DNA from: Terriglobia bacterium
GTDB taxonomy: Bacteria; Acidobacteriota; Terriglobia; Terriglobales; Acidobacteriaceae
Assembly: GCA_020072815.1 (NCBI GenBank)
Contig: JAIQGE010000002.1
Span: 62,001 to 126,000, forward strand
DNA: 64,000 nt
Direction: 5' to 3'
Shown here piece after piece: positions 23,120 to 54,008 of this stretch (its first letter is position 1; every line of letters begins with the position of its first letter). The notes under the pieces are model-generated. The model searched no databases. It saw only the letters and a list, made by a program, of their open reading frames with translations, and was not told where the DNA came from. The position numbers and the translations under genes were made by a program.

Positions 23120-24183
23120 CAGGAGCCCCCGACTTTCGACTTCGGGACCAGCACTTCCGCGGTCATGCCCGGAACCAGGTTCTTCTTGCTGTTGTCCACG
23201 CTGAGCTTCAGGGCGATGGTTTTGATGTCGCGCTTGCGGCGGCTCACGTCGCGCTGCGTGGCGAAGTCGGCTTCCGGAGCCTTGTAAATCACCTTGCCGG
23301 ACACGATGTCACCGGAAGGAAGGCGCACGTTGAGCTGGTCGCCGATGGCAATGTGCACGGATTCGGTCTCGGGGACCGCCGCGCGCACCCAGGTATCGCT
23401 CAAGTCGGTGATGATCACGATGGGCTGGCCCAGCGTGACCACTTCGCCTTCACGCGCCGCGCGGATGGTGACCGTGCCGTTCACCGGCGAAACCACCTTG
23501 GTGTATCCCAGCCGGGCCTCAGCGGCTTCCAGCTGCGCCTGCGCGTTGAGCTGCTGTGCCCGGGTCGAAGCCGCCGTGCTCTGCGCTGCATTGGCCAGGA
23601 GCGTGTGTGCCCGCGCGGTCTCCAGGTCAGCCTTGGCGGCGTTCAACTGGTCCTCCACCGCGCGGACCAATGCCTGCTGGGCCTTCAACTGGGCCTGTGC
23701 GTCGTCAGCTTGCTGTTGCGGGGCCACTCCTTGTGCGGCAAGTGTCACCGATCGCTTAGTGTCACTCTCGATGCGGACCAGATCGGCTTGCGCCTGGGCC
23801 AGCGTGGCTTGCGCGGCGCGCAACCGGGCCTGGGCGTTGACTACGCCGCTGGAAGTTTCACCCGCAGTCTGGTCTTTGGTGGCGCGCGTTTGCGCTACCT
23901 GGTGGCGCAAGCTGGCCAACTGGGCCTGCGCGGCCTGGCGGTCCGCAGTCAATTCCTCCGCGTCCAGTACGGCAACGGTCTGTCCGGCTGTTACTTCCGT
24001 GCCTTCATCCACGGCCAGGCGCGCGATGCGGCCGGCCATCTTGGGACTGACCACCACCTGGTTGGCGTCCACTGTGCCGACCAGCACCAGGTCAGAAGAA
24101 TGGTCCGCGGCGAAAAAGTAGTAGATGGCCGCGGCCACCAGCAGCAGGCCGAGGACGGCGAAGAATTTGTTGCGCGCGCTCAC
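23119..24183 (-). CDS. HlyD/YbhG-type membrane fusion protein
   Basis: A 354-aa periplasmic adaptor. It has an N-terminal membrane anchor (FAVLGLLLVAAAIYYFFAA, 8-26), a first lipoyl half starting 'VDANQVVVSPKMAGRIARLA', a long Ala/Gln-rich coiled coil of about 140 residues, the second lipoyl half (KVVSPVNGTVTIRAAREGEV) and a beta-barrel domain. Such proteins connect inner-membrane ABC exporters to the outer membrane. The start is GTG, overlapping the tetR stop by 4 nt (GTGA). Confidence 0.92.
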   Translation of the reverse strand: MSARNKFFAVLGLLLVAAAIYYFFAADHSSDLVLVGTVDANQVVVSPKMAGRIARLAVDEGTEVTAGQTVAVLDAEELTADRQAAQAQLASLRHQVAQTRATKDQTAGETSSGVVNAQARLRAAQATLAQAQADLVRIESDTKRSVTLAAQGVAPQQQADDAQAQLKAQQALVRAVEDQLNAAKADLETARAHTLLANAAQSTAASTRAQQLNAQAQLEAAEARLGYTKVVSPVNGTVTIRAAREGEVVTLGQPIVIITDLSDTWVRAAVPETESVHIAIGDQLNVRLPSGDIVSGKVIYKAPEADFATQRDVSRRKRDIKTIALKLSVDNSKKNLVPGMTAEVLVPKSKVGGS

Positions 24184-51378: not shown

Positions 51379-52989
51379 ATGGCTACCGCAACCACAATCC
51401 GGCCGCAGGAAGCCTCTCTTCTGATTGACATTGCTGGCCAGCGCCGCCGGGTGGAAGTTTTCCGCTTGCCCTTTACCATCGGCCGCTCGGACGACGCCGA
51501 CGCCACCATCGCCGACTTCCGCGTCTCCCGCCTGCATGCCCGCCTGCTCGGCGAAGACGGCGTGTACTTCGTCGAGGACACCGGAAGCCGCCACGGCACT
51601 TTCGTCAACGGAGCGCGCTGCGAGCGCATGCGCCTCAAGCACCTTGACGAGATCACCTTCGGCGTTCCCGGCCTGAAGATTATTTTCCAGGCGGGTCCCG
51701 CGCCGGGCAGCGCCGCCAGCATGCTGCTCACGCGCTTTGCTTCGGATACTGACGTCTCTGAGCTGGAGAAGCTCCGGCTCTTTCTCGAAGCCGCGCGCAG
51801 TCTGGGCGGCGGCCTGGTGGTGCGCGATATCCTACGCAACATGCTGGACTATGCTCTGCGCCTCACCAAAGCCGAACGCGGCTTTGTTTACCTGCGGGAA
51901 AAAGACACGGCTGCCCTGGCCTGCGGTGTGGACAGCCGGGGCAACCAGCTTACCCAGGACGCCAACGTTTCCAACTCCGTGATCCAGGACGCCCTCACCT
52001 CGGCTTCAGAATTCATTGCCGGCGACACCTCGCAGCAGAGCGCGCTTGCCGCCCGGCAGAGCATTGTGATGAACGAACTGCGCACCGTGGTGGCCATTCC
52101 GCTGCGCGCCAAGCGCGTGGCCACGGGCGCGGCCGCGGCCGAAGTTCAAGGCGTGCTCTACCTGGATAGTCACCTGGCCTCGCGCAATCTCTCCGGCGTG
52201 AGCCCGGAAGTGCTGCGTGCGCTCGCCGCAGAATGCGCCGCGGTGCTGGAGAGCGCGCGGCTCATGGAAGCCGAGCAGTCCGCCCGCCAGTATCGCCAGG
52301 AAATGGAAATTGCCGCCTCCATCCAGCGCAGCCTCAGTTCAGAGGCTGAGGTCCGCTGTGAATTCGCTCAGGTCTCCGGTCGCACTATTCCCTGCAAGGA
52401 AGTTGGCGGCGACTTTTTTGATGTCCACGTCTCGCCCGACGCCGTCACCGTCATCGTGGGCGACGTCTCCGGCAAGGGCATCTCCGCCGCGCTGCTGGCC
52501 TCGGTGATCCACGGCATGTTTTACGCGCAGATCTCCACCGGCTCCCCGTTGGTGGAAACCATGCACGCCATCAATCAATTTCTCTGTTCGCGCGTGGCCG
52601 GGCAAAAATACGCGACCCTGCTGGCCGCCCAGCTCAAGCATGACGGCCGCCTGGAGATCGTCAACTGCGGCCACGTTCCGGGACTCATCTCCGCCGCCGG
52701 TGCCGTGACCCAGGTGCAGGACGGCGACATGCCGGTGGGCTTGATGGCTGACGCTTCCTTCCACTCCATCCAGGCGCAGCTCGCGCCCGGCGCGCGGCTG
52801 GTGATCATCACCGACGGCATCAGCGAAACCGAAAACGCCGAAGGCGCGGAATTTGGCTTGGAAAAAGTGGAAGTCTTGCTGGGCGCGCAAGACCCGTTGT
52901 CGGCGATTCTAGGCGCCGTGAATACCTTCAGCGGCCACGCTGAAGCCCAGGACGATCGCACCCTGCTGGTGCTGGAACGCCTGCAGTAA
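51379..52989 (+). CDS. FHA-GAF-PP2C (SpoIIE/RsbU-type) phosphatase
   Basis: A 536-aa signalling protein. The FHA domain (about 12-105) has GRSDDADATI, SRLHARL and 'GSRHGTFVNGARC' for phosphothreonine binding. A GAF-like domain covers about 130-290. The C-terminal PP2C/SpoIIE phosphatase (about 315-536) has 'EMEIAASIQRSL', VGGDFFDVH, VIVGDVSGKGISAA and ITDGISETENAEG. It may dephosphorylate an anti-anti-sigma factor after sensing phosphoproteins. It lies near an FHA protein and a Stp-type phosphatase on the opposite strand. Confidence 0.92.
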   Translation: MATATTIRPQEASLLIDIAGQRRRVEVFRLPFTIGRSDDADATIADFRVSRLHARLLGEDGVYFVEDTGSRHGTFVNGARCERMRLKHLDEITFGVPGLKIIFQAGPAPGSAASMLLTRFASDTDVSELEKLRLFLEAARSLGGGLVVRDILRNMLDYALRLTKAERGFVYLREKDTAALACGVDSRGNQLTQDANVSNSVIQDALTSASEFIAGDTSQQSALAARQSIVMNELRTVVAIPLRAKRVATGAAAAEVQGVLYLDSHLASRNLSGVSPEVLRALAAECAAVLESARLMEAEQSARQYRQEMEIAASIQRSLSSEAEVRCEFAQVSGRTIPCKEVGGDFFDVHVSPDAVTVIVGDVSGKGISAALLASVIHGMFYAQISTGSPLVETMHAINQFLCSRVAGQKYATLLAAQLKHDGRLEIVNCGHVPGLISAAGAVTQVQDGDMPVGLMADASFHSIQAQLAPGARLVIITDGISETENAEGAEFGLEKVEVLLGAQDPLSAILGAVNTFSGHAEAQDDRTLLVLERLQ

Positions 52990-53017
52990 GCGACTACCAA
53001 CTGCGGGGAGTGACACT

Positions 53018-53151
53018 GGCTTTAGCCTCTGTAGGTATCAGGGCTTGGCTTCAGCCAAGCCGCTAGGCGTGGAGAAATAATTAGGTAGGCCCGGGCTTCA
53101 GCCCGGGATGCGCGGCAGCGCACCCCTGAAGTCTCACTCCTGGAAGCTGAA
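53018..53151. repeat. Folded repeat unit 1
   Basis: It begins GGCTTTAGCCTCTGTAGG and contains two hairpins: GGCTTGGC-TTCA-GCCAAGCC (53042-53061) and CCCGGGC-TTCA-GCCCGGG (53090-53107). It ends in TCACTCCTGGAAGCTGAAC, identical to the 3' end of the FHA gene at 53271-53289. Confidence 0.75.
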
Positions 53152-53186
53152 CAGTACTGAGAAGTTGCAAAATGATGGGGCGTCCC

Positions 53187-53289
53187 GGCTTCAGCCTCTG
53201 CAGGTATCAGGGCATGCCTTTAGGCGTGCCGACTAGAGTCAAAAACAATTTGGGCTTCAGCCCCTGAAAATCACTCCTGGAAGCTGAAC
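53187..53289. repeat. Folded repeat unit 2, running into the FHA gene end
   Basis: Same start as unit 1 with two changes (GGCTTCAGCCTCTGCAGG). Its hairpins are GGCATGCC-TTTA-GGCGTGCC (53211-53230) and GGGC-TTCA-GCCC. The stems differ in sequence from unit 1 but still pair. Its end is the stop region of the FHA gene. Units 1 and 2 fill the 281-nt gap between two convergent genes. Confidence 0.75.
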
Positions 53290-54008
53290 GCCGCTTTCAA
53301 CTTGCCTACTTCAATAACGTCGCCGGCCGCCAGGTCGCGCTGCGCGTGCAGGTCCTGGCCGTTCACCTTGAGCTTCACCTTGGTTTCCGCGGGCGCGATA
53401 AAGTATTTGTTGTCGCGACGGCTGATCAACGCCGCAGAATTCGGCGCGAACCAGCCCTTCAGGTGGATCGAAGCCATTTTCGACTTGCCAATCATCGTCA
53501 TCTTGCCCGTGAGCACGTATCTTTGCTGGTCAGTCTTGCCCTCCAGCACGCTCAGGATGCCGATGTGCTCCTTGATCGGAACGCCCGACGCCGACATCAC
53601 CGCTGGCGCCGCGTTCTTGGCCAGCAGTTCCTGCGCCTGTTTGGTGTCCAGCATCACCGTGTTGTCCAGCTTGGGCGTGGCCGGGCCCGCCTTGGCGGCA
53701 ATGGCCGCCACCGGCGCCGGACCTTCATTCTTGAACTCGATCTCGTGCTTGCCGATCTTCATCAAGTCGCAGTGCCGCAGCTTGGTTTTCTCCACGCGCG
53801 CGTTGTTCACGAACGTGCCGTTCAGCGAACCCAGGTCTTCCACCACGTAGTGGTCCTGGTTCCAGGTGATCTTGGCGTGATGCCCGGACACCGCCGGATT
53901 ATCAATCTGCACGGTGTTGTCCGGCTGGCGGCCGATGGTGGCCGTAGCTTGCGTGAGCGGTATTTCCTTCAGCGTGGATGCCCCAAATTTCAAATAGAGT
54001 TTTGCCAT
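53271..54008 (-). CDS. FHA-domain protein
   Basis: A 245-aa protein with a complete N-terminal FHA domain (about 20-95: ATIGRQPDNTVQI, SGHHAKI and GSLNGTFVNNARVE) that binds phosphothreonine peptides. A variable linker follows. A second, FHA-like strand-rich domain lies in the last 100 residues (KHEIEF earlier; MIGKSKMASIHLKGWFAP later). It overlaps the phosphatase gene by 19 nt, so the two are coupled. Function as an adaptor in Ser/Thr kinase signalling is inferred. The 3' end is duplicated in the adjacent repeat. Confidence 0.9.
   Translation of the reverse strand: MAKLYLKFGASTLKEIPLTQATATIGRQPDNTVQIDNPAVSGHHAKITWNQDHYVVEDLGSLNGTFVNNARVEKTKLRHCDLMKIGKHEIEFKNEGPAPVAAIAAKAGPATPKLDNTVMLDTKQAQELLAKNAAPAVMSASGVPIKEHIGILSVLEGKTDQQRYVLTGKMTMIGKSKMASIHLKGWFAPNSAALISRRDNKYFIAPAETKVKLKVNGQDLHAQRDLAAGDVIEVGKLKAAFSFQE

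Follow-up and report, generated by a model that had tools for sequence, protein, structure and literature searches.

The stretch between two convergent genes in the window (i.e., the whole 64,000-nucleotide piece of DNA analysed here) very probably consists of two RAYT-mobilised insertions of a REP-like repeat, R1, in the same orientation, together with one local duplication. One clade of RAYTs (HUH/Y1 transposases) has R1 as its cognate repeat. The case is real and, for the most part, one of an ordinary mobile repeat of the REP/RAYT kind.

Parts of the stretch between the convergent genes

The stop codons of the convergent pair lie 281 bp apart in the window, and the following features are placed in and around the DNA that separates them:

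51379–52989, + strand: convergent host gene of 536 aa (ORF; FHA plus SpoIIE-type phosphatase by eye from the translation)
53018–53031, + strand: 5′ extension of R1 unit 1, hairpin GGCTTTAGCC then TCTG (from the left-edge profile of the own genome)
53035–53128, + strand: core of R1 unit 1, with GTAT foot (53035–53038), CAGGG, hairpin 2 (53042–53061), spacer and CCCTG (53124–53128)
53085–53125, + strand: GTAG-tagged repeat nested within unit 1, with further copies in the own genome
53134–53152, − strand: non-coding 19-nt duplicate of the FHA gene's 3′ end, exact repeat TCACTCCTGGAAGCTGAAC
53187–53200, + strand: 5′ extension of R1 unit 2, hairpin GGCTTCAGCC then TCTG
53204–53266, + strand: core of R1 unit 2, with GTAT foot (53204–53207), CAGGG, hairpin 2 (53211–53230), spacer, hairpin 3 (53252–53263) and CCCTG (53262–53266)
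53271–53289, − strand: 3′ coding end of the FHA gene, from which the 19-nt duplicate derives (ORF 53271–54008)
53271–54008, − strand: FHA gene of 245 aa, a host gene outside the element (ORF; name from the first-pass annotation)

The two units run in the same orientation and match at 82% over 45 nt (53018–53062 against 53187–53231), which bears out the first-pass annotation in describing two related units with a common start. Its observation that the stems differ between the units and still pair also holds as quoted: the GGCTTGGC/GCCAAGCC stem lies at 53042–53061 in unit 1 and the GGCATGCC/GGCGTGCC stem at 53211–53230 in unit 2, the latter with one G–T pair. The closing stem of the unit 2 core is formed by CAG and CTG. 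A covariance model of R1, built from eight copies with both window units among them, matches unit 2 at 53187–53269 (E 2.3e-26) and unit 1 at 53018–53109 (E 5e-17), unit 2 and the first part of unit 1 being training rows of this model. The end of the unit 1 core at 53128 is a putative one, read by eye from the sequence; the model stops at 53109, within the nested repeat, which on the same reading occupies the place of the third hairpin. The window holds six occurrences of the motif GGCTTYAGCC, where shuffles give an expectation of 0.41, and five of the six lie within 53018–53262. The whole stretch folds modestly better than its own shuffles (z = −2.03; 4 of 200 shuffles equally good).

The nested repeat has a second copy in the same genome at G000:C2:49581–49621 (98% over 41 nt), and at G000:C16:39175–39201 (L017, L156) it again lies within an R1 copy. 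Its pattern was found three times in this genome and not once in the reversed control; the pattern was derived from these same three copies, and the count of three is therefore no independent census. With GTAG at the palindrome end and three dispersed copies, the nested repeat has the form of a REP, and GTAG-tagged palindromes appear as a known REP type in the available text of one survey (PMC3733652). Two of its three known places are inside R1, which is too few to speak of a preference.

The R1 family and its fold

The R1 core runs from a GTRN foot through CAGGG, an 8-bp hairpin, about 20 nt and a GGGC-TTYA-GCCC hairpin to a CCCTG end. Its edges were profiled on 15 copies from the window's own genome and 34 chosen copies from relatives, 32 of the latter anchored on the left. 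The left edge, anchored on CAGGG, is sharp at the foot: GT is present in 30 of the 32 copies of relatives and in 12 of the 15 own copies, and conservation just outside the foot is near background in the 32 anchored copies of relatives. On the right, conservation in relatives drops directly behind the closing CTG (34 of 34 anchored), whereas in the own copies it extends two bases further (8 of 15 anchored). Among the 32 anchored copies the foot reads GTAT in 18, GTGT in six, GTAA in four, GTAC in one, GTAG in one and something else in two. Across these 32 copies it is not the canonical REP foot GT[AG]G, and R1 is therefore called REP-like here. The own copies and some of those in G004 (L048, L061, L113) carry an extra GGCTTYAGCC-YCTG ahead of the core; this 5′ extension appears to resemble the 3′ part of a further R1 copy.

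In the genome of the window, a DNA search returned 12 matches, the window's own included. The covariance model gave at least 20 matches in that genome at E ≤ 1 (150 of 626 candidates scored) and at least 15 at E ≤ 0.01 (150 of 613 candidates scored), eight of these 15 being training rows, and at least 113 matches in G011 at E ≤ 0.01 (150 candidates scored). Within the taxonomic family, R1 is present in 20 of 21 genomes, i.e., 13 of 13 at E ≤ 0.01 and 7 of 8 further ones at E ≤ 1e-5, the family member G060 giving no match (E ≤ 1e-5; 74 candidates scored). It was found in one of eight genomes of the sister family (E ≤ 0.01; 150 candidates scored per genome) and, the own genome included, in 26 of 61 genomes of the class (E ≤ 1e-5; 74 candidates scored per genome). 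No ORF of at least 90 aa runs across 10 of the 15 own copies on a simple ORF call. R1 is, as a REP should be, a dispersed, mostly extragenic palindromic repeat of many copies, and the search for further copies that the first-pass annotation had proposed led to a family spread over the own genome and its relatives. In G005 (C16:103370–103995; L139:471–1096), three R1 copies form a tandem array with a period of 273–274 nt, non-repeat DNA included. Close inverted R1 pairs occur in several genomes of the class (G021, G035, G040, G065) and resemble REPINs or BIMEs, e.g., G021:C21:23813–23891 (+) with 23893–23975 (−), whereas the two units of the window are in direct orientation.

Among 63 distinct R1 copies, both partners have changed in 13 of the 19 stem pairs. 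Of 1103 cells, 93.7% pair, against 28.9–43.2% when the partners are slid by 1–3 columns. None of 500 shuffles matched the observed value on any of five covariation measures, in a test whose rows were chosen by the R1 model, whose alignment was fitted to it and which related copies inflate. Hairpin 2 is the best supported, being 98.8% paired with changes on both sides in five of its eight pairs; in the closing stem, the outermost pair does not form in 32 of 57 cells. The stems covary across the R1 family, and the structure is therefore conserved. Selection for structure had been proposed from the two window units: the compensating stem changes (13 of 19 pairs) sustain the structural part of this proposal, and the selection would be better understood as arising from a transposase that recognises the fold.

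Association of R1 with one RAYT clade

A search with PF01797 (Y1_Tnp) gave 66 matches in nine genomes (9 in the own genome and 57 in eight relatives), and R1 was looked for in all 65 loci containing them. A flank was counted when an R1 match of at least 18 bits lay within 600 nt and faced inward. R1 flanks 17 of the 66 Y1 matches, 12 on both sides as an inverted pair and five on one side; the other 49 have none at ≥ 18 bits, some Y1 matches being fragments of one gene or standing at contig ends, where a flank is possibly out of sight. At G007:C133, one of the 17, the downstream R1 is in the wrong orientation. The threshold drops weak R1 matches that would add a second flank to G009:C11 and G007:C303, as well as a 16.3-bit single-hairpin match at L094, 289 nt from a Y1 gene that does not belong to the clade. 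Three non-clade Y1 genes (L085, L091, L101) also have R1 at a distance of 0.7–1.4 kb, and L111 was omitted from the tabulation of R1 since it overlaps L126.

In a tree of 62 proteins, from which four pieces shorter than 95 aa were left out and for which the tree program warned of long branches, the 17 R1-flanked enzymes make up one side of one branch (support 95/96). Shuffled flank labels gave a mean of 15.3 changes, and none of 500 shuffles was as clustered. H-x-H (HUH) and YI--NP are among the invariant columns of nine aligned members of the 17, and the profile of these nine has the "TnpArep" structure 4er8 as its best solved structure (E 8.5e-15). The one clade member that was scanned passes NCBIfam NF047646 REP_Tyr_transpos with 108.7 bits against a cut-off of 80. 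HUH, Y---NP and the family score, the last from this one member, mark the R1-flanking enzymes as RAYTs.

R1 and its enzymes resemble REP/RAYT systems (TnpA-REP, the E. coli REPtron) in that an HUH/Y1 transposase with YIxxNP has on its flanks hairpin repeats of a kind scattered between genes, in the REP_Tyr_transpos membership of a clade member and in having TnpA-REP as the nearest solved structure by sequence. They differ in the foot (GTRN, mostly GTAT, in R1, but GT[AG]G in REPs), in the element, which in R1 spans about 63 nt with two hairpins inside a CAG/CTG closing stem, and in the locus L113, where the upstream R1 stops two bases short of the RAYT start codon. At the other end of that gene the last codons and the stop of the RAYT lie inside the downstream R1 copy (L113:1371–1399); repeat and coding sequence can therefore overlap, and at this locus R1 does contribute coding sequence.

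Within the window's own genome, R1 stands beside none of the nine Y1 matches, a profile of the R1-linked clade found no member, and the two RAYT-type genes both fall outside the R1-linked branch. G003 similarly has no R1 flank at its four Y1 matches despite at least 64 R1 matches (150 candidates scored). The genomes are drafts, and a repeat-flanked RAYT could therefore go missing at a contig break. The R1-clade RAYT of the window's genome may have been lost or may be missing from the assembly, and since this genome is without a clade RAYT, its R1 copies look like non-autonomous relics. Its IS200-like Y1 genes were considered as mobilisers of R1 and rejected, since there is no R1 within 600 nt of them and other inverted repeats surround several. 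Among these IS200-like loci (L020–L024), five of six searched have long inverted repeats, with longest arms of 46–99 nt, comprising several hairpins of sequences other than R1; the Y1 genes at L020–L024 are perhaps TIRYT-type elements.

In the available text of PMC3733652, longer inverted repeats (TIRs) flank the Y1 transposases of acidobacterial TIRYTs in K. versatilis, T. saanensis, A. capsulatum and G. mallensis, one K. versatilis TIR being a repeat family. As described there, the TIRs resemble R1 in flanking Y1 genes as inverted repeats, and the own IS200-like Y1 genes, with their other inverted hairpin repeats, may fit TIRYT better than R1 does. Class 3 TnpA-Y1 enzymes, in the accessible part of PMC6006769, are found in Acidobacteria with atypical high-copy structures (about 600 in Solibacter usitatus) and have a Y----Q motif and a CnGA foot, whereas the R1-linked enzymes have Y---NP, as class 2 does. 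R1 was therefore rejected as a class 3 TnpA-Y1 structure. REP–RAYT pairs, acidobacterial TIRYTs and atypical structures at Y1 enzymes are already described in what is available of these two papers (PMC3733652, PMC6006769). A literature search by words and by R1 motif letters gave no R1 sequence for Acidobacteria; two R1 letter strings occur in the accessible portion of PMC2817692, within a Haemophilus influenzae GTAG REP.

Origin of the stretch

An empty site is present in G004, where the same convergent pair is without R1 and its stop codons are 21 bp apart; in the window this distance is 281 bp. At E ≤ 1e-20, 7 of the 20 other genomes have a relative of the FHA protein, and three named database relatives, at 60–65% identity, are acidobacterial or Terriglobia MAGs, which makes a Terriglobia bacterium the probable host. 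None of 10 loci with an FHA relative in other genomes has R1 at E ≤ 0.1; three of these ten (the named MAGs) seem to be the same genomes as three of the seven, and beyond G004 the gene order around FHA relatives often differs by eye. At two other R1 insertions of the own genome, on C1 and C8, R1 is likewise absent from those presumed orthologues whose gene end could be read (six and three loci, respectively). A further fragment, L179, which is outside these counts, has a weak R1 match of 21 bits.

By analogy with E. coli TnpA-REP, a RAYT would recognise the R1 hairpins in single-stranded DNA, cut beside the GTRN foot and then move or copy R1. The GTAG-tagged repeat would have landed in unit 1 afterwards.

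R1 could instead be primarily an RNA element (a terminator, a stabiliser of mRNA 3′ ends or a small RNA) whose fold is selected between gene ends. It lies between convergent gene ends in the window, its hairpins are strong with compensating changes, and an ORF stop lies within 90 nt on the GTAT side in 16 of 37 copies and on the CTG side in 9 of 37, with ORFs called on length and GC3 by a simple rule. By eye one side had seemed likely to be favoured at gene ends, but the counts of 16 and 9 of 37 do not bear this out and show no clear preference. The presumed orthologous gene ends examined are without R1, and an RNA role does not predict the inverted pairs around RAYT genes. A promoter and terminator scan of 52900–53400 gave no promoter and no terminator-like site. 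In 52700–53600, the two Rfam matches at E ≤ 1 reach 22.2 and 19 bits against gathering thresholds of 58 and 50, so that R1 is not a known Rfam RNA there. A primary RNA role is thus very improbable.

The exact repeat TCACTCCTGGAAGCTGAAC has its two places at 53134–53152 and 53271–53289 and no third one in the window by text search; the latter is complementary to the final 19 nt of the minus-strand ORF 54008–53271, i.e., of the FHA gene. The first-pass annotation was correct in seeing 19 nt common to the repeat region and this gene end, and went on to take them as the end of the repeat unit and R1 as a repeat that can take up and carry coding sequence, here a copy of the FHA end. An exact gene-end copy does lie between units 1 and 2, and at least one relative's RAYT gene, that of L113, ends inside R1. 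However, the 19-nt copies stand outside the R1 element edges, one on each side of unit 2, and in the 120-nt flanks of 37 R1 copies (15 own and 22 of relatives) a long direct repeat was found at one copy, unit 2, the other 36 sharing 5–11 nt and 300 mispaired flanks sharing 5–14 nt. The 19-mer is absent from the other loci that were searched for it. The 1 of 37 rules out flank duplication as a trait of the R1 family and, with this absence, points to a local duplication and not to cargo. Capture of coding sequence by R1 is therefore highly improbable, and the apparent copying of the gene end reflects one local event rather than a property of the repeat. A further alternative derives the two units from tandem duplication of one unit plus gene end, not from two insertions; it concerns one step and is compatible with RAYT-mobilised insertion, so the likelihoods expressed here need not add up to certainty. 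The units share their orientation, a gene-end copy precedes each of them on the gene strand, and R1 does form the tandem array in G005. Against this, the nested GTAG repeat is in unit 1 and absent from unit 2, and the two 19-nt copies show no difference, against 18% between the units over 45 nt. One event would leave similar divergence, so this mismatch counts against a single tandem duplication of everything, which is unlikely unless conversion intervened.

Two R1 insertions, with a later arrival of unit 2 accompanied by the gene-end duplication, would fit better. A 19-nt target duplication is not expected from insertion by IS200/IS605-like enzymes, and the duplication therefore needs a separate event. 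The 19-nt copy of the FHA end may have been a local duplication at the arrival of unit 2, or may have come from later template switching.

On a wider and rather improbable view, R1 might mark a RAYT lineage widespread in the class, with a GTRN guide in place of GTAG and a two-hairpin element; by ending just before the RAYT start codon, this element might in addition regulate the enzyme that moves it, and the 19 nt would be the footprint of an undescribed insertion route. If this is true, the 19-nt duplication would be a footprint of repair synthesis or template switching, which the available text of PMC3733652 and PMC6006769 does not describe for RAYTs. In a phylum that is otherwise treated through few genomes, as far as the accessible parts of the same papers go (PMC3733652, PMC6006769), R1 provides an abundant acidobacterial repeat tied to one transposase clade by sequence, edges and phylogeny, and this pairing of repeat and enzyme is directly testable.
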